A stretch of 64,000 bases of DNA from Arcanobacterium pinnipediorum (GTDB lineage Bacteria; Actinomycetota; Actinomycetes; Actinomycetales; Actinomycetaceae). Below are positions 1-33,805 of the stretch, one piece after another. The notes beneath the pieces are model-generated. The model ran no database searches. It was not told the origin of the DNA and saw only the letters and a program-made list of their open reading frames with translations. The position numbers and the translations under genes are program-made. Numbering within the stretch: the first letter of the stretch is position 1; each line of letters starts with the position of its first letter. Location: the NCBI RefSeq assembly GCF_023973165.1, contig NZ_CP099547.1:1860001-1924000 (forward strand), read 5' to 3'.

Positions 1-325
1 GATCTGATTCTTTCTCTGCTGCTTCGCTTTTGGTTAGCTCACCGATACGTTTCGCTGCGGGCTTGCGCAATGATTCTTTTTCAATCTCTGGATTCAATTT
101 AGTGGCGATATCGAGCACTTCGTCAACAAGTTTTCCAGAACGCACTGAGAGATCTAGGCTAGCTTCTTCATATTTTCCGCGGATACCACGCTTAATGCTC
201 TGAGATGAGTGCATCGCGCGCAATGCACCACCCAGCATAAGACGTTTCGGAGTTCCGGAATCGTCGCGATTAAGGTTCGAATATGGGACGTTAGAAATTA
301 TGTGTAGTGTTAGATTCTTTGCCAT
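1..325 (-). CDS. cas7e: Cas7e (CasC/Cse4), Cascade backbone subunit, N-terminal part
   Basis: The reading frame begins at ATG 325 and runs off the left edge, so only about 108 N-terminal residues are visible. The start MAKNLTLHIISNVPYSNLNRDD and the following PKRLMLGGALRAMHSSQSIKR are typical of Cas7e, the six-copy backbone subunit of type I-E Cascade that binds the crRNA spacer. It follows cse2 by about 30 bp in the same direction, the standard cse2-cas7 order; AAGGAAAATC just before the start is a plausible ribosome site. cas5e is not in view and probably lies further left. Assignment rests on N-terminal motifs and context. Confidence 0.88.
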   Translation of the reverse strand, partial: MAKNLTLHIISNVPYSNLNRDDSGTPKRLMLGGALRAMHSSQSIKRGIRGKYEEASLDLSVRSGKLVDEVLDIATKLNPEIEKESLRKPAAKRIGELTKSEAAEKESD

Positions 326-356: not shown

Positions 357-965
357 TTAGTTCTCAGAAGTATCAGCAGTTTGGCCGATACTGCCGTAAT
401 AGTCTTTTAAAATTTGCATTCTTAACGCACGGGACTCCTCGCTTACGCCATTTCCCCATCGGGTAAGTAATCGATAAATTGAGAAATAATCGCATGCTGG
501 AGGATTCGTTAATGAGTTTGCCATTTGCATTAATCGCCAGATAGACCGAAATGCTTCTTCAAAATCTTGGGTGTGAATGTAGGATAAACGTCGAGCAATC
601 TCATCTGGTTTTCTAGGGTCGAAAGAAACCTGTTGGTCTTGTTTCTTTTGTCTAGCCCACGCTACCGTCAATTCACTACACCAAGTACCAAATGATTTGA
701 ATTTTCGTTCCTCAGTTTCTTGAGACTGTGGAATATCAATAAATTCAGCAATAAGAGCAGCCACTCGCACTGCTGTTGTGCGAACTTCTGGTCGCACATC
801 GGGCCCTAACGCAGGGTATATGTATGGATATGCGTAATGTTCAGTAAACGGATCAGCTCCACGCCGAATGTTGGCTCGTTGTTGCCTAAAAGTATCTTTT
901 GTTCGTCGATCTAGAATTTGATAGATCAACGCGTATTTTGCCTTATCGTCTACATTATTAACCAC
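357..965 (-). CDS. cse2: Cse2/CasB (Cas11e), Cascade small subunit
   Basis: I place the start at GTG 965, giving 202 residues, because AGGAGG sits 6 nt upstream and the longer in-frame reading (to 1085) would overlap cas8e by about 100 bp. Cse2 is the dimeric belly subunit of type I-E Cascade that stabilises the R-loop. The protein is rich in basic and aromatic residues (TKDTFRQQRANIRRG; SYIHTQDFEEAFRSIWRLMQMANS) and matches the usual Cse2 length of 160-200. It lies between cas8e (19-bp gap holding the ribosome site) and cas7e, the conserved order. Confidence 0.87.
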   Translation of the reverse strand: MVNNVDDKAKYALIYQILDRRTKDTFRQQRANIRRGADPFTEHYAYPYIYPALGPDVRPEVRTTAVRVAALIAEFIDIPQSQETEERKFKSFGTWCSELTVAWARQKKQDQQVSFDPRKPDEIARRLSYIHTQDFEEAFRSIWRLMQMANSLTNPPACDYFSIYRLLTRWGNGVSEESRALRMQILKDYYGSIGQTADTSEN

Positions 966-984
966 GTTACCCCTCCTATTCTTT

Positions 985-2616
985 CTAATTTTCCTCGGTT
1001 GTGCTGTAGTGATCGCGAATGATTTTACGAATGATACGCGAAAGACTTGCACGCACTGCATAAATTTGTTGCGAATGTTGACCAATAAATGGATCTGTTA
1101 CTCGATCAAACGTTTGCATTGCCGCACGATACATTCCTTCTGCTAGTTCCTCACTGGCTAGAGTGCCAGCTCGAAGCTCACTCATATATGTTTCGTAAAC
1201 TGGAGTTATTTGGCGCCAAAACTCAGCTGAAGCATCTGCCTTTGAGTTTTCTAGGGCATCTAATGCAAGTGCCGGGTAGCCACTAGCTTCACGTTTCGAA
1301 TCTGAGGCATTTCGACGGCGGAACACTCCTGTAACACTACGATGGATAGTACGAATTAACTGCGCTTTCCATCGAACTTCGTTTCGCTGTTGAGGCCTTA
1401 ACCCGAAACCCCAAACGTCAGGATCGGCGAAAAAGACCTCGGAGGCTCTTACACTGGGTGACGATGCAGTTCCTTCAATCTGGTGCCTAAAGAAAATAGG
1501 CATACGATCTTCAGCATCGCTTGGGAGCACATTAGCATTACCGGAATTCAATAAAGCAGCAAGTTTATCTTCGGCAGCCCACTCGATTGCCAAATCAGTT
1601 CCATCTCGACCAAAGTCGATTCGTTGAGCTTTCTTGGCACCATCACCCAATTTTGAATCTCCCATATAGAGGTACATTGGGTCATTCTCATTTCGAATAT
1701 CCCACCACTCTTTTAACGCTTTTTCAGAGTCTTTACCGACATAACTAATTGGTAACCACTGTGGTGGAACACCTCCAACACGAACTCCAGCCAAAAGATA
1801 TTGGCCATTTTCTTCGTTCCAATAACAAGCTGCAGTATTGGAGCTCCACGTCCCCATCCACAACGGATGAAGCAGTTCGTTTGGCAGCTTCGATAAACTC
1901 ATTTCTCGGTCTGCCCATGCCGGAAGTCCTTGTCCTTCAACCCATTTCTTCGGCAATGACGCAAGGAGTGAATACAGGAAACTCTCTCCGTCGACTCTCC
2001 AAATAAATTCAGTAGCCGCATTTCCTTTGCCTAAGAATCGAATTCCTGGCGCACCCATCCGAGTTTTATCGCCATCATATTTATTGTTGCCTGCCATAGA
2101 GTAGTAGTGGTAGGTCACTAATTTCATAACTGCATCAGATAAAGAGAGCTCCGTTGGGAAACTGACGATAAGGTTCCAATAATCTTCTCCTCGGTCCGAG
2201 GGCATAGCAGGTGAAAGTTTCTTGACTTCTTGATCCCCAGGTCCTATTTTACGCGAAGTGTCTTTATCTGATTTGGGAGGCAAAACAGGCCGTTGCATAA
2301 AAGGATGGACCGAATCAAAAATATTAGTGCTAGGCGATAGTACATCCAAAGCATGGTCTACAGCACGACCGCTGAAACCCTTAGTAGACAAGGCGACCAT
2401 GTCTGTTGCATTATCCCATTCAAAATCCTCTTCATAACGAAGTGCAACCGCAACAACTGATAGTAAAAATCTAAACGTTGCCGAGACGTCAAATGCTGGC
2501 TTTTGCAGATTCAACATAAAATCCGGTTCATGGGCCCGTAATAGTGCTTCACGAACAGAAACGTCACCTTGTGTTGTGGAGACCCAATTAATATCGGTTA
2601 ATGCATTGATATCCAT
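985..2616 (-). CDS. cas8e: Cas8e (CasA/Cse1), Cascade large subunit
   Basis: Start chosen at ATG 2616 (543 residues, MDINALTDINWVSTTQGDVS), preceded by GAGGGGCAGAGGAAG; the reading upstream of it is poor coding sequence from the divergent intergenic region. Cas8e recognises the PAM and recruits Cas3 in type I-E interference. The opening with an early INW(V) and SVREAL, the FRFLLSVVAVALR helix, and the C-terminal four-helix-like segment are typical of Cse1. Length is a little above the E. coli protein (502). It is the first gene of the minus-strand cas8e-cse2-cas7e operon, and its promoter contains the proposed self-targeting site of the crRNA-like element. Confidence 0.9.
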   Translation of the reverse strand: MDINALTDINWVSTTQGDVSVREALLRAHEPDFMLNLQKPAFDVSATFRFLLSVVAVALRYEEDFEWDNATDMVALSTKGFSGRAVDHALDVLSPSTNIFDSVHPFMQRPVLPPKSDKDTSRKIGPGDQEVKKLSPAMPSDRGEDYWNLIVSFPTELSLSDAVMKLVTYHYYSMAGNNKYDGDKTRMGAPGIRFLGKGNAATEFIWRVDGESFLYSLLASLPKKWVEGQGLPAWADREMSLSKLPNELLHPLWMGTWSSNTAACYWNEENGQYLLAGVRVGGVPPQWLPISYVGKDSEKALKEWWDIRNENDPMYLYMGDSKLGDGAKKAQRIDFGRDGTDLAIEWAAEDKLAALLNSGNANVLPSDAEDRMPIFFRHQIEGTASSPSVRASEVFFADPDVWGFGLRPQQRNEVRWKAQLIRTIHRSVTGVFRRRNASDSKREASGYPALALDALENSKADASAEFWRQITPVYETYMSELRAGTLASEELAEGMYRAAMQTFDRVTDPFIGQHSQQIYAVRASLSRIIRKIIRDHYSTTEEN

Positions 2617-2652
2617 CTTCCTCTGCCCCTCATAGTGATTGGTGTAACATAA

Positions 2653-2681
2653 AGCGTAGTACCTGAATATAATTTTTTCAA
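2653..2681 (-). promoter_or_regulatory. Candidate cas8e operon promoter
   Basis: On the minus strand TTGAAA (2681-2676) is followed after 17 nt by TACGCT (2658-2653), which fits the TTGACA / TAnnnT pattern of actinobacterial housekeeping promoters. Transcription would begin near 2646, about 30 nt before the cas8e start. An alternative pair, TTGTTT (2693-2688) with TATATT 16 nt on, lies slightly upstream. Either way the -35 element touches or overlaps the 15-bp match to the mini-spacer. Confidence 0.5.
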
Positions 2682-2697
2682 CTTGTAAAACAATGTT
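2680..2697 (-). promoter_or_regulatory. Self-target of crRNA-like element in cas8e promoter (AAC PAM plus 15-bp match)
   Basis: On the minus strand AAC (2697-2695) is followed by ATTGTTTTACAAGTT (2694-2680), identical over all 15 nt to the mini-spacer at 2801-2787. AAC is one of the two PAMs deduced from overlapping spacers 23 and 34 of array 1. Cascade bound here would cover the -35 region of cas8e. The 15-nt match begins at the PAM-proximal seed end. Confidence 0.6.
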
Positions 2698-2757
2698 GAT
2701 TTTAATAAAAAAGCAATGTACTTTTGAGATAGAGGGAAATTCCTCCAGAGACCAGAG

Positions 2758-2830
2758 CAATCTACCCCCGCAAATGCGGGGAAACTAACTTGTAAAACAA
2801 TGGAAATACCCCCATAACTATGGGGAACTG
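2758..2830 (-). ncRNA. Candidate CreR-type cas-regulating crRNA-like RNA (pseudo-repeat / 15-nt spacer / pseudo-repeat)
   Basis: Read on the minus strand: pseudo-repeat A (2830-2802), a 15-nt mini-spacer (2801-2787), pseudo-repeat B (2786-2758). Pseudo-repeat A is 29 nt like the array repeat. It keeps the whole 3' part GGGGGTATTTCC that gives the crRNA 5' handle and keeps a hairpin, although the middle 8 nt differ. Pseudo-repeat B keeps the CCCCGC..GCGGGGGTA core but has lost both ends. The mini-spacer ATTGTTTTACAAGTT recurs exactly at the cas8e promoter. Crinkled repeats around a short guide to a cas promoter are the hallmark of published CreR RNAs in several CRISPR types; this assignment is inference from sequence only. 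An alternative is a decayed two-repeat CRISPR remnant. Confidence 0.6.
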
Positions 2831-2834
2831 AATA

Positions 2835-2843
2835 ATAATAGCA
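2835..2843 (-). promoter_or_regulatory. Extended -10 element for the crRNA-like RNA
   Basis: TGCTATTAT on the minus strand matches an extended -10 (TGnTATAAT with one change). It would start transcription at about 2828, at the first bases of pseudo-repeat A. No good -35 is visible, as is common with extended -10 promoters. Confidence 0.4.
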
Positions 2844-2863: not shown

Positions 2864-3562
2864 ATGGTCGAGTCACTCTATCTGACAAAATATCCTATTC
2901 ATCTTGCACTCAGTCAGAAAGCCGCTAACAAACCACGAAACGGCTGGGATGAAACTGACCCACAATTCCGCCACCGAGCAGTTATGGCGATCTTCGATAC
3001 TGTTGATTCTGATAAGCCTCGAGAAGATGCTGCTATACTGTTCCGCGCTGACTTTCTAGCTGGCCAGGCACCTTTCTTCTTAATCCAATCGAAGATCCCG
3101 CCAGTGCATGCCCCGTTCGGAACGCAAACTGTAGAGCGAAAAATGGAGCTGTTGCCAACTGGAACTCCAGTTAGTTTTCGACTAGCAGTTAATGCGATTC
3201 GCCGAAGAACAATTCCTACCAATGTCGCGTCCCAAGGTTCCCACGTTATAACCACTCCAATTCCGTTCGATTTTTCTCCAAAAACTACCGAAGATGCATA
3301 TAATCACGAAACAATGACGCCATGGCTAAATAACAAGCTCAAACTAGCCCTCGGTGACGTAACAATAACCAACCATCAGCGTGAACTCTTAGGCATTGAC
3401 CGAAACGGGAAGTCTACGAGTTCTATGACAATCCAAGTCGATACTGTAGACGCGATAGCAACCGTTGTAGACGGGAGTGAACTCAACAATCTCATTCTTC
3501 ATGGCGTCGGTCGAGCCAAGGCCTACGGATGTGGATTACTGACAATACAGGCTTTAGCATGA
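2864..3562 (+). CDS. cas6e: Cas6e (CasE/Cse3), crRNA-processing endoribonuclease
   Basis: 232 residues from ATG 2864, with AAGGGGCGG just upstream. Cas6e cuts pre-crRNA at the base of the repeat hairpin and stays on the crRNA in Cascade. The glycine-rich C-terminal loop GVGRAKAYGCGLLTI is the family signature. His37 in PQFRHRAVMAIF aligns by position with the catalytic histidine of CasE (my inference from the N-terminal context). It is the first gene of the plus-strand operon, overlapping cas3 by 4 nt. In most I-E loci cas6e lies between cas5e and cas1, so a cas6e-cas3-cas1-cas2 order is unusual. Confidence 0.93.
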   Translation: MVESLYLTKYPIHLALSQKAANKPRNGWDETDPQFRHRAVMAIFDTVDSDKPREDAAILFRADFLAGQAPFFLIQSKIPPVHAPFGTQTVERKMELLPTGTPVSFRLAVNAIRRRTIPTNVASQGSHVITTPIPFDFSPKTTEDAYNHETMTPWLNNKLKLALGDVTITNHQRELLGIDRNGKSTSSMTIQVDTVDAIATVVDGSELNNLILHGVGRAKAYGCGLLTIQALA

Positions 3563-6198
3563 ACACTCGAACGGAACTGTGGGCAAAACAAGACGGATTT
3601 GATAAAACATATCCATTACTTGCTCATTTACTTGACACCACAACGATTGCTGGTGTTCTCTATGACCTCTGGCTCCGTGATGGATTACGTCAACTATTCC
3701 ACGAAAATCTTGGAAATAAGGCTAAATCCATCGTCCAATGCATTGCGGGACTTCATGACGTCGGTAAAGCTAGTCCACTATTCCAACAACGGCCTGCGGA
3801 TAAGGCACAACACTGGGAAGATATCCGAAGAAAAATAAAAGATTCCGGCAACTATAGGAGTCTTGTGGGCTCATCGATTGCCTTAGATCGAACAAAAGAA
3901 GAAGCACGGCGCCATGAGCGACTTTCTGCCTACGCAAGCCAATCTATACTGCCTTCTCCACGCCAATCTGCCAAAAGAACATGGTTGCATTTAGCTCTTG
4001 GCGGGCATCACGGAAGATTCTGTGCCATAAGTAAGGCTTCTGACTCGAGAGCTCTCCTCCAAGACCTAGAATATGGCGGCTGGACTGCTGCCCAGAACGA
4101 CTTAACGGACGCCGTACGGGCAGCCTGCCACCTCGATCGTGAAGATATTCCAGAACAGCTAGATTCAACTTTGACGTTGCTTCTTTCCGGACTGATTGTT
4201 TTGGCTGATCGGATCGCTTCTGGAGAACCATTCGTTGACGGCGGATTTGCTTTGCTTGCCAATTCCCCGGACATACTTGAAGATCCAGCACGTTGGATAA
4301 TTGAACGCGAAAAAGAAGCTGTATCACGGGTTCGTGCCACAGTGGGTGTATATTCCCCTTGGAAGGACGAAGAGGCGGCTAAGCATGCAATTTTAGGCGA
4401 TTATGACCCGCGCCCGATTCAGCAAGAAGCTCTCAATGCCCGAGAAGGGTTGTGGTCATTGATGGCTACTACTGGTAGCGGTAAAACTGAAGCCGCATTG
4501 TTGCGCCATTCTACCCGCCCAGAACGTCTCATTTTCTTGCTACCCACGCAGGCCACATCTAACGCTATTATGCGTCGAGTTCAGCACGCTTATCGAGACA
4601 CAAGCAATGTAGCGGCATTGGCCCACGGCTTAGCTTCGGTGGAAGATTTTTACCAACAACCACTTTCAATGTACGACGACGAAGCACAATACGTTTCACG
4701 TGAAAACCAGACCGATCAACCCAGTGGACTATATCCGTCATCATTTGTTCGTGCCGGTGCCGCCCGACTTTTCGCTCCTGTTTGTGTAGGAACAATCGAT
4801 CAAGCATTGGCTTCTGCATTACCTGGGAAGTGGATACATTTCAGACTTCTAGCGCTAGCTAATGCACATATTGTTATCGACGAAGTTCATACCCTTGATG
4901 TTTACCAAACCAAGTTATTAGAAGAGTTGCTGCCATGGTTAGCAAAGACTCGGACTCGAGTAACATTCTTAACTGCCACGATGCCTAGTGAACAGCGTCA
5001 GCAACTGATTTCCGCATATTCTCAGGCAGAAAAAGAACTTGAACCACCAGTTTTCCCATCGATCGACGTCGTTACCGAAACCCAAACTGCCTCAATTCCA
5101 GTTGAGTCTCTCACTGCAACTATGGCAATTGACCTGCGCCAAACAGAATATGATTCCCTCGTTGACTCCCACGTACTTTGGCACGAAGAAGTACGTGCGA
5201 AGTTTCCACAAGCACGCCTGGGAATTATTTGTAACACTGTAGCGCGAGCGCAAGAAACTGCGCGAGAAATTGCTAAAAATGGCGAGACCGTCGTAGTTTT
5301 ACATTCACGAATGACTGCAGAACATCGCCGTCAAAATGCGCAGTTACTTCTTAATTTGCTTGGCCCAGATGGGACTGGCACGAACGTGACCGTTGTAGGA
5401 ACGCAGGCGATCGAGGCTTCTCTCGATATCGATCTTGATTTTTTGAATACCGAAATTTGTCCGGCACCGTCACTCGTTCAGCGTGCTGGCAGGCAGTGGC
5501 GCCGAAATGATCCTCTTCGCGAGTCTCGCTGCCCTGGGGAAACCCAGAAAAAACTCACTGTGACCTGGTTCGACTCTGACCAAAGCGGGCCTTATCTACC
5601 ATATTTGGCTGCGGAGATTAAACACACCCATGAGTGGCTTGATCAACACTCCCAACTTGTGATTCCAGACGATGCACAAGAGTTTATCGACTCTGCTCAC
5701 GTTAAATTTGAGAACGCAATCACCGATTTTGATATGGAAGCTATAACTAAAGGAGCTTTGAAGGGGATGCGTGCAGAATCTAACCGCGCCCGGATAACAG
5801 ACGCCTTAACAGAGCGCTCTATCGTTGGGAATTTCGTTGCACTCACCACGAATAATCCGGCAGATGAATCAACAACACGACTTATCGATGAAGGATCTAC
5901 TGCTCGATTCATTCTAGGCGGCTCAGAATCTACGATTCCAGGTGCATGGCCCAAAACAGTAGAGGAACTTCTAGCCTTATCTTCACGGGATAAAGATGCC
6001 ATTAGAGAGGCATTACATGCCTCCATACCTCTCTCTTTACCCCGTAATTCAGAGCAAGATTTTGTCGAACGTCTTAACGCGATCTCGTTATCTGAATCCC
6101 GTTCACTTTTGAATGGTTATTACTTCGTTCCTAACGCCGATCAGTTCTACGATGCGCAAATCGGTTTTACTGGTCCAGTACAACCTCTAAAGCCATGA
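3559..6198 (+). CDS. cas3: Cas3, HD nuclease-helicase of type I-E interference
   Basis: Start at ATG 3559, inside an ATGA overlap with the cas6e stop, giving 879 residues. Cas3 is recruited by target-bound Cascade, nicks and degrades DNA. An HD domain is at the N-terminus (HD dyad about 66-67, in GLHDVGKAS). The superfamily 2 helicase follows, with ATTGSGKTEAAL (Walker A, about 315), IDEVHTLD (DEVH box, about 455), FLTATMPS (motif III) and SLVQRAGRQWRRN (motif VI). Full length and uninterrupted, so interference looks possible. The stop overlaps cas1 by 4 nt, implying translational coupling through the operon. Confidence 0.95.
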   Translation: MNTRTELWAKQDGFDKTYPLLAHLLDTTTIAGVLYDLWLRDGLRQLFHENLGNKAKSIVQCIAGLHDVGKASPLFQQRPADKAQHWEDIRRKIKDSGNYRSLVGSSIALDRTKEEARRHERLSAYASQSILPSPRQSAKRTWLHLALGGHHGRFCAISKASDSRALLQDLEYGGWTAAQNDLTDAVRAACHLDREDIPEQLDSTLTLLLSGLIVLADRIASGEPFVDGGFALLANSPDILEDPARWIIEREKEAVSRVRATVGVYSPWKDEEAAKHAILGDYDPRPIQQEALNAREGLWSLMATTGSGKTEAALLRHSTRPERLIFLLPTQATSNAIMRRVQHAYRDTSNVAALAHGLASVEDFYQQPLSMYDDEAQYVSRENQTDQPSGLYPSSFVRAGAARLFAPVCVGTIDQALASALPGKWIHFRLLALANAHIVIDEVHTLDVYQTKLLEELLPWLAKTRTRVTFLTATMPSEQRQQLISAYSQAEKELEPPVFPSIDVVTETQTASIPVESLTATMAIDLRQTEYDSLVDSHVLWHEEVRAKFPQARLGIICNTVARAQETAREIAKNGETVVVLHSRMTAEHRRQNAQLLLNLLGPDGTGTNVTVVGTQAIEASLDIDLDFLNTEICPAPSLVQRAGRQWRRNDPLRESRCPGETQKKLTVTWFDSDQSGPYLPYLAAEIKHTHEWLDQHSQLVIPDDAQEFIDSAHVKFENAITDFDMEAITKGALKGMRAESNRARITDALTERSIVGNFVALTTNNPADESTTRLIDEGSTARFILGGSESTIPGAWPKTVEELLALSSRDKDAIREALHASIPLSLPRNSEQDFVERLNAISLSESRSLLNGYYFVPNADQFYDAQIGFTGPVQPLKP

Positions 6199-7148
6199 GT
6201 TATTCACAAGAGGCACTTGCTTTTAGCACAATACCGGCAAATCATCAGGTACGAATTGAAGACAGAATATCGTTTCTGTATTTAGAGTATTGCCTAGTAC
6301 GACAAGATCGCACCGGCGTCGTCGCCATTCAAGACGCTACTGACGACGACGATAACCCAGACTCTGAAGCAACCGTAACTCGAATCCAACTACCCGTCGC
6401 CGGATTAGGAGTGTTGTGCCTTGGACCTGGAACAAGTATCTCTAATGCAGCAATAACATCATGTGCGCGGTCGGGATGTACTGTTGTCTTTTCTGGAGGT
6501 GGCGGCGTTAATGCCTACACGCATGCAACTCCACTGTCATCTTCCGCGAAATGGGCCATTGCTCAAGCACGCTTGATAGCTTCCCCCGATGCGCAAAAAA
6601 TTGCTGCCATTAAGCTCTATTCGAAGCAATTCGGTGCTGGGCAGGTCAGGGATGCTTCAATCAAAGTCATGCGCGGTATCGAAGGACGCATCATGCGCAC
6701 AACATACCGGGATTTAGCCAAAAAAGCCAAGATTAAAGGTTTCAAGAGAGATACAGCTGCTACTGATCCAGTAAATACTGGGCTGAATGTAGCAAATTCT
6801 ATTATGTACGGAGTTGCAGCTACGGTATGCGCAGCTATAGGTGTAAATCCTGCTTTGGGAATCATCCATCGCGGGGATATTCGCGCTCTTCTCTTCGATC
6901 TCGCAGATCTCTACAAAGCCCGAGTTGTCCTACCTCTTGTTTTTAAACATGCGCACGACGAAGATCCAATCAGTGAAATTAGACGCGACCTGCGCCAGGA
7001 GATTCATAGGCAACACATTATGGAAGATATGCTGGGCACACTCATGGAAATCTTAGAACCCCATCTTCCCAACCGCACTGATGATCGATTAATTGACGAC
7101 CACGGCGAGGTCGCAGGACATACCCAATACGGAAAAGAAGATGAATGA
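6195..7148 (+). CDS. cas1: Cas1e, spacer-acquisition integrase
   Basis: 317 residues; ATG 6195 overlaps the cas3 stop. Cas1 with Cas2 forms the complex that inserts new spacers. The type I-E family is evident from the N-terminal RIEDRISFLYLEYCLVRQDRTGVV, the central GIEGRIMRTTYRDLAKK carrying the first metal-binding acidic residue, and NPALGIIHRGDIRALLFDLADLYK carrying the conserved histidine and aspartate. Length is normal (E. coli 305). It is an intact gene, and the terminal overlap with cas2 indicates coupled expression. Confidence 0.95.
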   Translation: MSYSQEALAFSTIPANHQVRIEDRISFLYLEYCLVRQDRTGVVAIQDATDDDDNPDSEATVTRIQLPVAGLGVLCLGPGTSISNAAITSCARSGCTVVFSGGGGVNAYTHATPLSSSAKWAIAQARLIASPDAQKIAAIKLYSKQFGAGQVRDASIKVMRGIEGRIMRTTYRDLAKKAKIKGFKRDTAATDPVNTGLNVANSIMYGVAATVCAAIGVNPALGIIHRGDIRALLFDLADLYKARVVLPLVFKHAHDEDPISEIRRDLRQEIHRQHIMEDMLGTLMEILEPHLPNRTDDRLIDDHGEVAGHTQYGKEDE

Positions 7149-7459
7149 TGTTTGCAGTTCTGACATTAACCGCTGTTCCTGACCACCTCCATGGTTATGT
7201 GACCCGCTTTCTAACCGAAGCAGATAGTGGAATTTATATCGGAAACATTTCACGCAACGTATGCGATCGTTTATGGGAACGCGTGAGCACTACACTTGAA
7301 GATGGTACTTCTACTATGATTTATAGCGACCCTAAACGCGAACAAGGATTCTCTATGCTGACCGCAGGTAAAAATTCTCGACAAATTATTGACCTTGATG
7401 GTCTCGTTGTCGTATCCCTACGTCCCGGACGTGGAGAATCTAAAATTCGAAATCGTTGA
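7145..7459 (+). CDS. cas2: Cas2e, spacer-acquisition subunit
   Basis: 104 residues. ATG 7145 lies within the ATGA overlap with the cas1 stop; a second ATG follows immediately (7148). The sequence MMFAVLTLTAVPDHLHGYVTRFL, then GIYIGNISRNVCDRLWERV, is the type I-E (CasTM/Cse-type) Cas2 signature. It acts as a structural dimer bridging two Cas1 dimers. The stop is only 20 bp before the first CRISPR repeat, leaving no room for a classic AT-rich leader unless it lies in the 3' part of cas2. Confidence 0.93.
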   Translation: MMFAVLTLTAVPDHLHGYVTRFLTEADSGIYIGNISRNVCDRLWERVSTTLEDGTSTMIYSDPKREQGFSMLTAGKNSRQIIDLDGLVVVSLRPGRGESKIRNR

Positions 7460-7479: not shown

Positions 7480-10369
7480 CTCTTCCCCGCATACGCGGGG
7501 GTATTTCCAGCCGTTCGGTAATCCCTCGACGTTTGACCCTCTCTTCCCCGCATACGCGGGGGTATTTCCAGAATGATTAATTACTCTACTGTTACACTAA
7601 TCTCTTCCCCGCATACGCGGGGGTATTTCCGCTGTGCTTGCTCAGCAGTATTGCGAATGGCACTCTTCCCCGCATACGCGGGGGTATTTCCTAATCCACT
7701 ATCTGAATTTAAGATGGCAAACACTCTTCCCCGCATACGCGGGGGTATTTCCGATATTCCGAGTTTGGAAGAAATGAGCGGACTCTCTTCCCCGCATACG
7801 CGGGGGTATTTCCGGCTCATTGGCCACTCTCATCGCTCATGCGTTCTCTTCCCCGCATACGCGGGGGTATTTCCCATTGTCCTACTCCAAGGGTGATAGG
7901 ATCATTCTCTTCCCCGCATACGCGGGGGTATTTCCATCGGTTCCTTGCCGTTTAACATTGCGGTGAGCTCTTCCCCGCATACGCGGGGGTATTTCCATGG
8001 ATCTCGTCTGTTACCAATTTGTTGATAACTCTTCCCCGCATACGCGGGGGTATTTCCAACCTGCCGGAAATCATCACCCTTATAAATCTCTCTTCCCCGC
8101 ATACGCGGGGGTATTTCCATAGTGGAGTTTTCCGTCCCACGTAAGCTCAACTCTTCCCCGCATACGCGGGGGTATTTCCGGTCAGAATCAACAAAATGCG
8201 CACACACAAAACTCTTCCCCGCATACGCGGGGGTATTTCCAAGGATTGGAATTATTCCACTGAAGTATTCCCCTCTTCCCCGCATACGCGGGGGTATTTC
8301 CTGTGCATCGGAATGGCTCGGAGTATTCACCTGCTCTTCCCCGCATACGCGGGGGTATTTCCACTGGCGCCTCGTCAGCTGTGTTGGGGATTTCCTCTTC
8401 CCCGCATACGCGGGGGTATTTCCGAGTTTCCATGAGCGCTGATCCGCCGATTCCTCTCTTCCCCGCATACGCGGGGGTATTTCCCAAGATCATTGATAGG
8501 TAGCGACCCGAGCCAACTCTTCCCCGCATACGCGGGGGTATTTCCGTCCACCAAAGGTGTCCAATCCAAGCCCGCCACTCTTCCCCGCATACGCGGGGGT
8601 ATTTCCTCCGTGAGGTGCTCCTTCTTTTCCCCATCGACCTCTTCCCCGCATACGCGGGGGTATTTCCATCAAATCCTAGACTTTTTGCGGTGTTTGCGTC
8701 TCTTCCCCGCATACGCGGGGGTATTTCCCTGAGAGATTCTGCAGTATCGTTAGTAGGCTGCTCTTCCCCGCATACGCGGGGGTATTTCCCTGGTGAACGT
8801 GGCCCCGGTGGTGTGCCTAAACTCTTCCCCGCATACGCGGGGGTATTTCCAAAGGTTACATTAGCTAATGTTGAGTGGGATACTCTTCCCCGCATACGCG
8901 GGGGTATTTCCAGGTAATCGGCTGGAAAGAATACGGCTCAGCACTCTTCCCCGCATACGCGGGGGTATTTCCTGCATCAACGGTAGAACCACCGAAGCCA
9001 GCAGCTCTTCCCCGCATACGCGGGGGTATTTCCAGCGGTGATGAGGATAACGGTAAGGCTCCAGCCTCTTCCCCGCATACGCGGGGGTATTTCCCAAGGA
9101 AAAGCCCCATTAGGTAGGCTGAATACCTCTTCCCCGCATACGCGGGGGTATTTCCCTTAATCCCGGAGTCCCTCTGGAACCTCTGAACTCTTCCCCGCAT
9201 ACGCGGGGGTATTTCCGAATAAGAATCGCGATTGTGGCTACGACGATCCTCTTCCCCGCATACGCGGGGGTATTTCCGTAAATAGCCTCAGTAAATTCAC
9301 CCTCACACTCTCTTCCCCGCATACGCGGGGGTATTTCCTGTGAGGAATTTTCTGCCGTATTCCTCAAACGCTCTTCCCCGCATACGCGGGGGTATTTCCA
9401 CGCATCTGCGCATCATAACTCGACCCTCCATCTCTTCCCCGCATACGCGGGGGTATTTCCATCATGCTTGATGTAACGTATTTCATCATCGGCTCTTCCC
9501 CGCATACGCGGGGGTATTTCCATTAGCTAATGTAACCTTTGTCCCGGCTACCCCTCTTCCCCGCATACGCGGGGGTATTTCCACGTTATTCAGTGGTCTG
9601 TGTCACATCGAAGACTCTTCCCCGCATACGCGGGGGTATTTCCCTTCTAGCCCTATATAGTCCCGTTTTTATCAACTCTTCCCCGCATACGCGGGGGTAT
9701 TTCCAAGGTGAGTTTCTGGCATAAAGAAGAGGCTATCTCTTCCCCGCATACGCGGGGGTATTTCGTTGATGGAGGTAAGCAGGAGCACCTTACGGAGCTC
9801 TTCCCCGCATACGCGGGGGTATTTCCATGGTATAGATCGGAAAATGAGGGGTACTATACTCTTCCCCGCATACGCGGGGGTATTTCCGACTGTGTGGCCG
9901 AGTATCTGGGCTACTCCGTCTCTTCCCCGCATACGCGGGGGTATTTCCGGCAGTAATGAAATAGAAAAATACATTACCCGCTCTTCCCCGCATACGCGGG
10001 GGTATTTCCTAACACCATCGTCAGTTACACCGCTGGTGTCTCTCTTCCCCGCATACGCGGGGGTATTTCCTGGGCTTGGTCCTATCTTGGGTGGATTTGC
10101 CGCTCTTCCCCGCATACGCGGGGGTATTTCCACGTAGCCAGTGCCCTCGGTGGCCTTGATAAACTCTTCCCCGCATACGCGGGGGTATTTCCGATGCCCC
10201 CGGGCACTCTCTTAGGTACTAATTCTCTTCCCCGCATACGCGGGGGTATTTCCTATCTAGCGATATTGATTCAGAAATACGTCTACTCTTCCCCGCATAC
10301 GCGGGGGTATTTCCGATTTGCGGGAATGTTCGCGGGGTTTTCCTGTGCTCTTCCCCGCATACGCGGGGG
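7480..10369 (+). CRISPR. CRISPR array 1: 48 repeats, 47 spacers, type I-E
   Basis: The repeat is 29 nt, starting CTCTTCCCCGCATACGCG and ending GGGGGTATTTCC, with a CCCCGC/GCGGGG hairpin; period is 61 (32-nt spacers; the last spacer is 33). Repeat starts counted at 7480, 7541, 7602 ... 10286, 10348. The last repeat is cut after 22 nt by an IS element at 10370. Repeats are almost invariant; the repeat at 9737 ends in G instead of C. crRNA direction is plus, judged from the 3' handle GTATTTCC and the cas2-proximal position. Spacers 23 (8851-8882) and 34 (9522-9553) overlap by 19 nt on opposite strands. ORFs read through the array are artefacts of the 61-nt period. Confidence 0.98.
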
Positions 10370-10419
10370 TGAAGTGCCCCAGGTTTTGTTCCGTTTGAGT
10401 AGATGGGATAATCTGGACT

Positions 10420-10738: not shown

Positions 10739-11657
10739 TTCGGTTCATTGATGAGTATCGAAATCGTTTCTCTACTCAGTTCATCTGCAAGACGTTAAAC
10801 ACTCACCGTGTTGGTGGTTTCATCACTTCTCGTGGCTATCGTCAATCACAATCCCGTGGCGTGATTACTCGTAGCCTGCGTGATGCTGCTGCCGATAGTG
10901 CATATCGTTGAGGTTCATGAAAGTAACTACAATGTCTACGGGATTCGTAAGATGTGGCACGCGTTGCGCCATGAGGGGATCGATATTGGTCGTGAGCAAA
11001 CCGCTCGTTTGATGCGCCTTGCTGGAGTTAGTGGTAAAGGTAAGGGCCGCTTGCCTGTGACAACTCGCAAACCTCGGGGGCTAGATACTCGCCCGGACTT
11101 GGTGAAACGTGAATTTCGAGCTCCGAGGCCGAATCGGTTGTGGGTGGGGTGACATTACCTATGTCCGTACCCGTAAGGGGTTTGTCTACACCGCTTTTGT
11201 GACCGATGTGTTCTCCCGACGGATTGTCGGGTGGGCGCTAGTCGGTTCAATGCGAACTGAAGCGTTGCCGTTGCAGGCGCTCAATCAGGCGATCGTATGT
11301 GCGAAGAAAACAACTGGGCTGATTCACCATTCAGACCACGGCTCGCAGTATGTGTCCATTGTTTACAATGAGCGTCTTGCCGAGCATGGGATTACTGCCT
11401 CGACAGGGACGGTTGGCGATTCCTATGACAATGCTTTGGCTGAGAACGTCAACGGTTCTTACAAGAATGAGCTGATTCATAGGCGGTCATGGGCGGACGT
11501 GGTTGACGTAGAAATCGCGACGTTTGAATGGGTTTCGTGGTGGAACGAGTCACGACTTCACCAGAGCTTGGGCTACCGTACACCGGCTGAGGTTGAACAG
11601 GAGTTTTGGAACGGCAACACCGGCCATGAAATAATAGAAATCAAGGCACGTGCCTAG
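10735..11657 (+). pseudogene. IS3-family orfB transposase (DDE), frameshifted
   Basis: Pieces of a normal orfB are in three frames: MIRFIDEYRNRFS.. from 10735, then LLPIVHIVEVHESNYNVYGIRKMWHALRHEG, then DITYVRTRKGFVYTAFVTDVFSRRIVGW with HHSDHGSQYVS and the C-terminal NALAENVNGSYKNEL. The last parts are the rve integrase core with its DDE residues. Shifts lie near 10890 and in the G-run near 11148. Exactly the same two shifts occur in copy 2, so they pre-date the duplication. A functional transposase from this copy is unlikely unless recoding occurs. Confidence 0.85.
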
Positions 11658-28703: not shown

Positions 28704-29015
28704 GAGAATCTTTCGTTATTTAATAAGTTGAAGCTAGGCCTGCGTCAGATGAAACTGTTGAAGGTTTCTCGACTTCTTTATGAAGTCTTCAAGACCGCAG
28801 GTTTGCTTCTCGTTAAGGTCAACGTTACTTGTTTATGGTTTATTCCCGAAAAGTTAAAATCAGAATAATTTCGACACGCAGCCTCGGAGTTTTCCTATAC
28901 TAAGTGGCAGCTTGCCGGAAGGTAGTATTGAAGTTAAGAATGCAAAGATGTTGGGCTTGAGGCCTAGCACGCACTTTCAGGTAACTCGTGGCTCTGCTGC
29001 TCGGTCGCCAAGTTT

Positions 29016-29044
29016 GAAATACCCCCCGCGTATGCGGGGAAGAG
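29016..29044 (-). CRISPR. Orphan CRISPR repeat
   Basis: A single repeat in the orientation of array 2, identical to the array repeat over 28 positions except for one extra C in the C-run (six instead of five). No neighbouring repeat is seen on either side. It forms the left boundary of the phage-like module 29047-32228, whose right boundary is the terminal repeat of array 2. The remainder of the gap 28704-29015 shows no clear feature. Confidence 0.9.
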
Positions 29045-29046
29045 AT

Positions 29047-29337
29047 ATGGTTATCGCAATTAGTCGATCCTATGAGTACGACGTTGTAGGAGCGCTCCTA
29101 GAACTCGGATTCATCACTAAACGCGACCTTACAGTTCAAAAAATTAAAGTCGCTCTCGCGGACGCTACAGACAAAGAACTCGTCGATGAGATCAGTCGCC
29201 GCCTAGAAAACGGCAACCGAGAAGAATTCGACAAGCCCCTACGCCCAGTCCCAGACCTTGACGACGACAGAAACTTGTCGGAGCCGGATATTAACCTAGA
29301 AGCAGCTTCACCACACGGATACGAATACGATCAATAA
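29047..29337 (+). CDS. Small hypothetical protein of phage-like module
   Basis: 96 residues from ATG 29047 (MVIAISRSYEYDVVGALLELG). The frame is open to 28912, but that extension translates the orphan CRISPR repeat, so I reject it. The purine run GGGGAAGAG at the end of the repeat lies where a ribosome site is needed. The protein is helical at the N-terminus (ITKRDLTVQKIKVALADATDKELVDEISRRLENG) with an acidic, proline-rich tail. I do not recognise the family. It probably forms a pair with the next gene, 24 bp downstream. Confidence 0.55.
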   Translation: MVIAISRSYEYDVVGALLELGFITKRDLTVQKIKVALADATDKELVDEISRRLENGNREEFDKPLRPVPDLDDDRNLSEPDINLEAASPHGYEYDQ

Positions 29338-29361: not shown

Positions 29362-29739
29362 TTGACTCTCGAAGAATTAGAACAATTCATTGAAAGCCAC
29401 GGGGTCGCCGTAATCTATAAACCAAACCTACCAGTACCAGGATCATACAATCGCGAGATGAAAAGAATAGCGTTAAACGCATGCCTACAATCCATGCCGA
29501 AGAACGCCATATCAACACTCGCCCACGAGTTCGCCCACCACCTGCTCGGCCACGATGGGCCACAACCACCAACCGAGGAAGAACGAGCAGACCGTCTAGC
29601 TGCACGCCTGCTCATCTCCCCTACCGAGTACGATTTAGCAGAAAAGCTCCACAATGGACACCCCTCAGCAATCGCCGAAGAACTCGACGTGACCTGCTGG
29701 ATCGTCAAAGCCTACCAAAACACACTATGTGCGATATAG
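29362..29739 (+). CDS. ImmA/IrrE-type zinc metallopeptidase (short)
   Basis: 125 residues from a TTG start (MTLEELEQFIESHGV), with AAAGG upstream. The zinc motif HEFAHHLLGHD fits HExxH, and the later EERADRLAARLL fits the E-xx-A-x-(L/F)AAxLL segment of the ImmA/IrrE family. These enzymes cleave phage repressors to trigger induction. Together with the integrase, excisionase-like HTH and second peptidase nearby, it marks a decayed prophage or integrative element. Confidence 0.8.
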   Translation: MTLEELEQFIESHGVAVIYKPNLPVPGSYNREMKRIALNACLQSMPKNAISTLAHEFAHHLLGHDGPQPPTEEERADRLAARLLISPTEYDLAEKLHNGHPSAIAEELDVTCWIVKAYQNTLCAI

Positions 29740-32228: not shown

Positions 32229-32860
32229 TGAAATACCCCCGCGTATGCGGGGAAGAGTCACTTGATTAAAACCCCTCGGAGTATCACAGAGAAATACCCC
32301 CGCGTATGCGGGGAAGAGTATCGCAAGAACGTCAGTTCATCTTGCTCGAGGGAAATACCCCCGCGTATGCGGGGAAGAGTCTGCCAGTAAAAGCTGATTT
32401 ACTAGCGAAATACCCCCGCGTATGCGGGGAAGAGGGCAAGATAATATTACGCATGACGTAGAGTGGGGAAATACCCCCGCGTATGCGGGGAAGAGCAGCG
32501 TGGCAGCCGGGAAATATCGCTAGCTTGGAAATACCCCCGCGTATGCGGGGAAGAGCGGCTACGAGCACCATTCCAATGGTTGCGTTATGGAAATACCCCC
32601 GCGTATGCGGGGAAGAGTTTCCTTGAACTTCGCTAAATGCCCATGCTTCGGAAATACCCCCGCGTATGCGGGGAAGAGTGTGAGTTTAGGACGCGGTACA
32701 CCGATTCTTGGGAAATACCCCCGCGTATGTGGGGAAGAGACCGGTAAAGGACAACTGTACTTCATTAACAAGGAAATACCCCCGCGTATGCGGGGAAGAG
32801 CTAACGAGTCTGCGTTGAGCGGGAAGTCGTGTGGGAAATACCCCCGCGTATGCGGGGAAG
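32229..32860 (-). CRISPR. CRISPR array 2: 11 repeats, 10 spacers, same repeat as array 1
   Basis: Repeats start (plus coordinates) at 32229, 32290, 32351, 32406, 32467, 32527, 32589, 32650, 32711, 32772 and 32834; the crRNA strand is minus. The crRNA-upstream end is cut by an IS at 32861, leaving 27 of 29 nt. The repeat 3'-terminal base, C in array 1, is A, T and G in the repeats at 32229, 32290 and 32406; the repeat at 32711 has one C-to-T change. One spacer is only 26 nt (32380-32405); others are 31-33. The decayed distal end is at 32229, fused to an integrase remnant. No leader or cas gene is attached. Confidence 0.97.
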
Positions 32861-32882
32861 TGAAGTGCCCCGGGTTTTGTTC

Positions 32883-33805
32883 CTAGGCACGTGCCTTGAT
32901 TTCTATTATTTCATGGCCGGTGTTGCCGTTCCAAAACTCCTGTTCAACCTCAGCCGGTGTACGGTAGCCCAAGCTCTGGTGAAGTCGTGACTCGTTCCAC
33001 CACGAAACCCATTCAAACGTCGCGATTTCTACGTCAACCACGTCCGCCCATGACCGCCTATGAATCAGCTCATTCTTGTAAGAACCGTTGACGTTCTCAG
33101 CCAAAGCATTGTCATAGGAATCGCCAACCGTCCCTGTCGAGGCAGTAATCCCATGCTCGGCAAGACGCTCATTGTAAACAATGGACACATACTGCGAGCC
33201 GTGGTCTGAATGGTGAATCAGCCCAGTTGTTTTCTTCGCACATACGATCGCCTGATTGAGCGCCTGCAACGGCAACGCTTCAGTTCGCATTGAACCGACT
33301 AGCGCCCACCCGACAATCCGTCGGGAGAACACATCGGTCACAAAAGCGGTGTAGACAAACCCCTTACGGGTACGGACATAGGTAATGTCACCCCACCCAC
33401 AACCGATTCGGCCTCGGAGCTCGAAATTCACGTTTCACCAAGTCCGGGCGAGTATCTAGCCCCCGAGGTTTGCGAGTTGTCACAGGCAAGCGGCCCTTAC
33501 CTTTACCACTAACTCCAGCAAGGCGCATCAAACGAGCGGTTTGCTCACGACCAATATCGATCCCCTCATGGCGCAACGCGTGCCACATCTTACGAATCCC
33601 GTAGACATTGTAGTTACTTTCATGAACCTCAACGATATGCACTATCGGCAGCAGCATCACGCAGGCTACGAGCACTCACACCACGGGATTTTGATTGACG
33701 ATAGCCACGAGAAGTGATGAAACCACCAACACGGTGAGTGTTTAACGTCTTGCAGATGAACTCGACAGAGAAACGATTTCGATACTCATCAATGAACCGA
33801 ATCAT
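32883..33805 (-). pseudogene. IS3-family orfB transposase, frameshifted (copy 2)
   Basis: Begins at ATG 33805 in an ATGA overlap with orfA. The same two shifts as in copy 1 break it into MIRFIDEYRNRFSVEFICK.., LLPIVHIVEVHESNYNVYG.. and DITYVRTRKGFVYTAFVTD... The DDE core residues (D in WxxDITY, D in HHSDHGSQY, E in NALAENVNGSYKNEL) are all still encoded. Only programmed recoding or trans supply could make it mobile. Confidence 0.85.

Follow-up and report, generated by a model that had tools for sequence, protein, structure and literature searches.

A two-repeat mini-CRISPR between cas8e and cas6e of Arcanobacterium pinnipediorum very probably encodes a CreR-type RNA directed at the cas8e promoter

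Between the divergent genes cas8e and cas6e of Arcanobacterium pinnipediorum, two degenerate CRISPR repeats enclose 15 nucleotides that recur beside the presumed promoter of cas8e. This arrangement raises the question of what so short an element does for the genes around it. CreRs, or Cas-regulating RNAs, are reportedly the subject of Liu et al. (Cell Host Microbe, 2023); a further publication of that year is Shmakov et al. (NAR, 2023). We consider it very probable that the mini-CRISPR encodes an RNA of this type, whose 15-nt guide would bring the host's type I-E Cascade to the promoter of cas8e, blocking transcription of the Cascade genes without cutting. This reading had already been proposed from a sequence-only reading of the window, by which we mean the whole 64,000-nucleotide stretch of DNA that was analyzed. 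All coordinates below are positions in the window.

Profile searches of the window and the rest of the genome found a complete type I-E system, with cas8e, cse2, cas7e and cas5e on one side of the locus and cas6e, cas3, cas1e and cas2e on the other.

2..325, minus strand: cas7e, which runs past the window edge; the full cas7e, and then cas5e, lie in the genome beyond the window
357..1085, minus strand: cse2/cas11e (TIGR02548); longest frame, true start possibly further in
985..2616, minus strand: cas8e (Pfam PF09481, PADLOC Cas8e), first gene of the operon predicted to be repressed
2864..3562, plus strand: cas6e (TIGR01907), divergent from creR
3529..6198, plus strand: cas3 (profile and PADLOC); longest frame
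6195..7148, plus strand: cas1e (TIGR03638)
7145..7459, plus strand: cas2e (TIGR01873)
7480..10376, plus strand: main CRISPR array, with 48 repeats (the last degenerate) and 47 spacers (46 of 32 nt, the last of 33 nt)

No NCBIfam match was found for cas8e (985..2616). The array repeat is CTCTTCCCCGCATACGCGGGGGTATTTCC (29 positions). A second I-E array on the minus strand (32229-32862; 11 repeats, 10 spacers) has a repeat identical to that of the main array, and the transposase-like frame beside it (32883-33431) is identical to one near the main array (11109-11657). A solitary, near-perfect repeat with one additional G lies at 29015-29044 on the minus strand, just upstream of a small frame (ATG near 29048) that is followed by a frame with a HEFAHH metallopeptidase-like motif (29362-29739). 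This repeat is absent from the other 8 genomes of the genus when up to 3 mismatches are allowed, and no convincing target was found for a guide read after it. It is possibly a single-repeat regulatory or anti-CRISPR-like RNA.

The element of interest, creR, occupies the minus strand between the divergent cas6e and cas8e genes.

2832..2840, minus strand: presumed creR -10 region, TATTATTAT, with TG upstream at 2843-2842; consensus match only
2802..2830, minus strand: psiR1, the first pseudo-repeat, CAGTTCCCCATAGTTATGGGGGTATTTCC; stem changed to CCCCAT/ATGGGG with pairing retained
2809-2802, minus strand: 5' handle of psiR1, GTATTTCC, 8 nt, intact
2787..2801, minus strand: guide, 15 nt, ATTGTTTTACAAGTT
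2758..2786, minus strand: psiR2, the second pseudo-repeat, AGTTTCCCCGCATTTGCGGGGGTAGATTG; hairpin intact, 3' end diverged
2766..2809, minus strand: mature CreR predicted after Cas6e cleavage (8 + 15 + 21 = 44 nt), by analogy with I-E crRNA

The sequence-only reading had placed two degenerate repeats at 2830-2802 and 2786-2758, enclosing 15 nt, and had called the 5' handle of the first fully conserved. We located the repeats exactly there, with all 8 nt of the handle unchanged. Both pseudo-repeats show 9 mismatches to the 29-nt array repeat, and they are its best matches in the 64 kb outside the two arrays and the solitary copy at 29044, the next best having 11. Their hairpins both fold in the centroid structure given by RNA folding. 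The element is not an ordinary CRISPR array, since 9 of 29 repeat positions are mismatched and its spacer is 15 nt long, compared with near-identical repeats and 32-nt spacers. A start site set by the presumed -10 region would sit at the 5' edge of psiR1, and a -10-like element occurs at a similar distance from psiR1 in many, not all, relatives. A search for Rfam families in 2560-2960 gave no match at E values up to 1. On the opposite strand, the creR -10 region TATTATTAT reads AATAATAATA, where a cas6e promoter could lie, and one AT-rich element at 2831-2863 may serve both directions.

The second copy of the guide and its surroundings are as follows.

2695..2697, minus strand: PAM AAC before the target; motif supported by array spacers
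2680..2694, minus strand: target copy of the guide (protospacer, cas8e coding strand), whose end overlaps the presumed -35
2676..2681, minus strand: presumed cas8e -35, TTGAAA; consensus match only
2653..2658, minus strand: presumed cas8e -10, TACGCT, at a spacing of 17; consensus match only
2644..2673, plus strand: promoter-like GTAACA-18-TATAAT toward cas6e, from a promoter scan with 1 site found and 0.9 expected by chance

In a sigma-70 promoter scan, neither the presumed cas8e promoter nor that of creR was listed, and the plus-strand site appeared instead. The copy that had been noted at 2694-2680 by the presumed -35 is present, and it is the sole other copy in the genome: the exact 15-mer occurs twice in 1.95 Mb, in creR and at the cas8e promoter. 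When the base in front is included, the match extends to 16 nt. A 13-nt core anchored on the handle has 0 mismatches at the cas8e promoter, and the next-best site between the guide and cas8e has 5; with AC required and any base allowed at positions 6 and 12, a perfect site exists at the cas8e promoter alone. Within the 4.6-kb locus there is no second guide match, the next best on either strand having 4 mismatches of 15. An antisense RNA acting on cas8e mRNA was rejected, because the guide is in the coding-strand sense and its target is upstream of the presumed start.

For CreA, excerpts of a study of CreTA (PMC9458426) likewise describe a short guide flanked by two degenerate pseudo-repeats, with Cascade as the repressor, and this common anatomy would suit a CreA-type antitoxin RNA that represses a small toxin, as in a CreTA addiction module, in place of cas genes. 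We consider such a module very improbable here. The targeted promoter is that of cas8e, not of a toxin, and leads straight into the gene; about 36 nt separate the presumed -10 (2653) from the start codon (2616), which leaves little room for a toxin RNA; and the 4 mismatches in the next-best guide match leave the cas8e promoter as the sole good target. On these grounds the toxin reading was rejected. A difference in repeat decay can be added: the same excerpts describe psiR1 of CreTA as more diverged than psiR2 (PMC9458426), whereas here each is 9 of 29 positions from the repeat.

The motif in front of the target agrees with the array. Spacers 23 and 34 overlap on opposite strands, with GAC before the protospacer of spacer 23 and AAC before that of spacer 34. 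From this overlap the sequence-only reading had deduced AAC as the PAM and had pointed to AAC in front of the target copy. The latter is seen at 2695..2697; the deduction stands for spacer 34 and has to be widened for spacer 23, which gives GAC. Spacer 11 matches a same-genus genome (G001) at 32 of 32 nt, adjoining AAC, within a long open frame that looks phage-tail-like by eye, and spacer 21 has an imperfect protospacer in G001 with GCC upstream. The array spacers accordingly yield AAC, GAC, AAC and one GCC at an imperfect site, and AAC and GAC are exactly the motifs that precede the CreR targets at all 18 of the loci described below. The creR copy of the guide is preceded by CC in place of AC, and therefore would be spared. 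The two G001 protospacers, one perfect and one imperfect, lie about 1 kb apart, which suggests a phage shared within the genus. A phage search with the array gave nine matching records. In three of them (H1-H3) the match is broken into 3-14 pieces, as expected of repeats; the other six are all Propionibacterium phages with one common spacer-like match at E = 3.

Comparison of the same intergenic region in related genomes had been put forward as a check on the CreR reading. We sought cas8e in 9 genomes of the genus (4 with cas8e), 213 of the family (21), 396 of the order (11) and a collection of named species (21 loci). Of the 11 order-wide matches, 7 are in Actinomycetaceae and the other 4 are weak. 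A first cas8e scan of the named genomes gave no relative, and the 21 loci come from a second scan that used alignment. Nineteen loci from a separate upstream-region scan together with 9 of these 21 make 28 distinct cas8e upstream regions; the other 12 were treated as genomes already counted. Left out of the 28 were G060, whose contig begins inside cas8e, and G188, a short contig in which the best upstream match to the window repeat has 15 mismatches of 29.

A guide right after the pseudo-repeat handle, with a matching target, was found at 18 of the 28 loci, and guide and promoter target are not only both kept there, they change together. AAC or GAC precedes every target, and the targets are situated upstream of the cas8e match by 54-105 nt. 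These loci are the window, three further members of the genus (G003, G004, G006), G195, Arcanobacterium pluranimalium, Trueperella bernardiae, Varibaculum cambriense, three Actinotignum (two A. schaalii and G061), four Rothia and three Corynebacterium. In the 19-locus scan the pair ranked first at 11 loci. In the named-collection scan, two Rothia pairs ranked lower, which was fixed by anchoring on the handle. Handles were located by pattern; where there were two candidates (G195, A. pluranimalium, V. cambriense and Corynebacterium MSK297), the choice was made by hand from repeat context, and the handle of Actinotignum timonense was set by hand. In three Rothia loci (L045, L046, L061), psiR1 is strongly rearranged, with handle, guide and target retained.

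Ten loci have no such pair. Seven have no recognized pseudo-repeat pair: Actinobaculum suis (G010), Neoactinobaculum (G135), two Winkia (G209, G210), G211, Flaviflexus (G100) and L060. Repeat-like remains with no recognizable target occur in the other three: A. timonense, Mobiluncus mulieris and Corynebacterium silvaticum. A single handle-like hairpin is present in Winkia neuii, and the best site for its guide has 6 mismatches; when the C. silvaticum and W. neuii guides were tested separately from the anchored comparison, nothing under 6-7 mismatches was found. In M. mulieris (L062) and A. timonense (L049), two pseudo-repeats stand in the same place, with no cas8e target and no convincing one elsewhere: a search with their orphan guides for alternative genome targets gave no more hits than a reversed-pattern control. 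It is possible that these elements are broken or retargeted CreRs.

Because our first scans ignored every sixth position, we redid the mismatch test unweighted on 13 nt, again anchored on the handle. Among 20 psiR1 loci, 18 have 0-3 mismatches and the two failures have 5. In contrast, 307 of 380 non-cognate combinations of guide and promoter give 5-6 mismatches, and the 13 that give 0-2 are all between near relatives. With shuffled guides (500 per locus at 20 loci, 10,000 in all), a match with 0 mismatches never arose, one with 1 mismatch arose twice, one with 2 arose 39 times and one with 3 arose 300 times. The weakest pair, that of R. endophytica, has 3 mismatches, a level reached by 341 of the 10,000.

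For position-by-position analysis we used 15 distinct pairs, having dropped G004, whose guide and target are the same as those of the window, and two of the three Actinotignum; M. mulieris and A. timonense were not included. Mismatches at positions 1-15 number 0, 0, 0, 0, 0, 9, 0, 0, 1, 1, 0, 8, 0, 1 and 2, and at positions 16-24 they number 11, 10, 13, 9, 12, 14, 11, 10 and 11 (101 of 135, which is the chance level). Thus, 17 of the 19 mismatches within positions 1-13 are at 6 or 12. This concentration has a binomial P of 1.9e-12 if all positions are equal, a rough figure given the ancestry that these lineages share. The two exceptions are single mismatches in two Rothia pairs, at positions 10 and 9. 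According to excerpts of PMC5904413, the crRNA in I-E Cascade has every sixth base flipped out, the seed comprises positions 1-5 and 7-8, and 45% of bound off-targets match at position 6, which compares with matches in 6 of our 15 pairs. As judged from these alignments, the mismatch profile is the reading pattern of type I-E Cascade.

Individual comparisons illustrate the joint changes. Relative to the window, G006 has both copies changed at positions 1, 4, 8 and 10, and its guide GTTATTTCAGATGTT differs from its target GTTATTTCAGAAGTT solely at 12. In G003, both copies have changed at 9, 13 and 14. Two Corynebacterium have both copies changed at 7 and 10, with drift at 12. The proposal of a CreR-type RNA therefore gains support from guides and targets kept and covarying at 18 of 28 loci, with 17 of 19 mismatches where I-E Cascade does not read.

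The same pattern bears on two other explanations. A decayed CRISPR array, holding a spacer once taken from its own cas promoter and having no present function, would account for the degenerate repeats and for the three relatives that have repeat-like remains and no target. Decay would not move guide and target together, however, and the read positions stay matched in 15 distinct pairs while 6, 12 and everything from 16 onward drift, and so we regard it as quite improbable. Alternatively, the repeated 15 nt might be an operator, with a transcription factor binding a half-palindromic TTGT-N3-ACAA before cas8e and in the creR region. The window guide does contain TTGT-TTT-ACAA, and the A. pluranimalium and G003 guides are also partly palindromic. 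Over the 15 guides, however, palindromy is 51, compared with a shuffle mean of 49.5, and 661 of 2000 shuffles reach it. The sequence also varies between loci while its two copies stay matched, and in the 18 loci one copy starts right after the handle and the other right after RAC, most differences being at 6 or 12. With palindrome statistics no higher than those of shuffles and no conserved palindrome, we rejected the operator, which we consider extremely improbable.

Returning to a CreR-type RNA, we considered whether its guide would be cut-silent as well as repressive. Between their pseudo-repeats, the window, G003, G004, G006 and A. pluranimalium have a spacer of 15 nt; T. bernardiae, V. 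cambriense, three Rothia and three Corynebacterium have one of about 19-21 nt, Actinotignum one of about 27 nt, and G195 and R. halotolerans one of about 31-32 nt. These lengths were set partly by eye and some boundaries are approximate; for V. cambriense, one Rothia and three Corynebacterium, the script either overlooked the hairpin of the second pseudo-repeat or put it in the wrong place. The lengths cluster near 15, 20, 27 and 32, with steps close to six nt, the length that a single Cas7 covers. If positions 6 and 12 are set aside, 14 of the 15 pairs match as far as positions 13-16 (two of them with a single mismatch inside that stretch), and the A. pluranimalium pair matches as far as 19. 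These alignments suggest selection for short pairing, which would be met in Arcanobacterium by a trimmed spacer.

Published experiments on shortened spacers, as excerpted, bear on both binding and cutting. In a type I-F1 system, spacers from 14 nt upward assemble and bind, and R-loops shorter than wild type trigger no cutting (PMC7296934); in a type I-B system, 24 bp represses without interference (PMC10989794). By analogy it is plausible that the 15-nt guide binds without cutting by Cas3. The harmlessness of CreR is not assured, because some Cas3 cutting persists when I-E spacers are moderately shortened: after removal of 6 or 12 nt, degradation continues at a slower rate (PMC7296934). Two features are possibly new: pairing limited to 15 nt with every sixth position free, and a spacer cut down to exactly that length. 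We give an even chance to a broader statement, namely that actinobacterial I-E systems in several genera share a fixed 15-nt repression ruler, with 13 read bases selected, 6 and 12 ignored, and pairing that stops near 15 for spacers of 15, about 20, about 27 and about 32 nt alike, and that the Arcanobacterium spacer, trimmed to the ruler, gives a natural crRNA to a small Cascade that does not cut and has feedback sensing of its own operon as its sole role.

We propose the following sequence of events. CreR would be transcribed toward cas8e from a promoter with a TATTAT element at the edge of psiR1. Cas6e, supplied by the divergent operon, would cleave both pseudo-repeat hairpins to give an RNA of about 44 nt. 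Cas8e, Cse2, Cas7e, Cas5e and Cas6e would then assemble on it into a complex smaller than normal, given the short guide. This complex would recognize AAC and form 15 nt of pairing with the template strand next to the presumed -35, leaving 6 and 12 unread, as the comparative pattern indicates. Bound there, Cascade would exclude RNA polymerase. The presumed -35 begins 12-14 nt into the target in 7 of 15 loci and from 7 before to 17 after the target start in the remaining ones, all these promoters being consensus guesses. Excerpts of two reviews describe competition by array crRNAs and relief by anti-CRISPRs for CreR (PMC12737573, PMC12948488). Since array crRNAs would compete for Cascade here too, repression would hold only while Cascade is in excess, and it would lift once crRNAs or anti-CRISPRs draw Cascade away. 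The loop would act first on cas8e-cse2-cas7e-cas5e. The promoter-like site toward cas6e (2644..2673) overlaps the target stretch and would have its start near the target. Repression may thus extend to the divergent operon or leave it out, and Cascade bound at the target might block this plus-strand site as well.

CreRs are reported for types I-B, I-E and V-A in excerpts of a review, which describe them as crRNA-like RNAs from a mini-CRISPR, with a guide partly complementary to a cas promoter and generally no toxin gene (PMC13131331). Each of these traits has a counterpart here: a mini-CRISPR with degenerate repeats is present at the cas locus; its complementarity to the cas promoter is limited to 15 nt, with 13 read positions, the promoter itself being a consensus guess; and the target stands behind a PAM that the element's own locus lacks. 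As for a linked toxin gene, the evidence is the gap of about 36 nt before cas8e only, and tiny RNA toxins are possible elsewhere. By the features that can be assessed from sequence, the window element would be classed as a CreR. What sets it apart from CreR as known from excerpts of reviews (PMC13131331, PMC12737573, PMC12948488) is a spacer of only 15 nt that equals the paired length, together with the 15-nt limit and the free positions 6 and 12 across genera. Artificial Cascade repressors likewise bind or repress through shortened spacers without interference (PMC10989794, PMC7296934, as excerpted), but those are engineered I-B and I-F1 guides, whereas the window guide is natural, type I-E and conserved. 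Racr anti-CRISPRs are also repeat-like RNAs outside an array, and in the excerpts available they are solitary repeat units in viral genomes (PMC10651486); here, two repeats, a guide and a matched target lie inside a cas locus. Searches of open-licence papers, some of them with the genus names Corynebacterium and Arcanobacterium, gave among the matches listed none that deals with CreR in these genera or with the pattern at positions 6 and 12.

Comparison of these genomes shows the matched guide and target, the PAM, the anatomy, the covariation and the unread positions, and on sequence evidence alone a CreR-type switch appears common in one Cas8e lineage. Evolution would here have recorded how I-E Cascade reads a target that it is to repress only: a PAM, 15 nt, and every sixth base ignored. 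Such a record would provide a natural design rule for safe Cascade-based repression, and changing position 6 versus position 4 would provide a sharp and cheap test of RNA-guided feedback. It also hints at how a cell may keep its cutting complex in check yet respond to phage.
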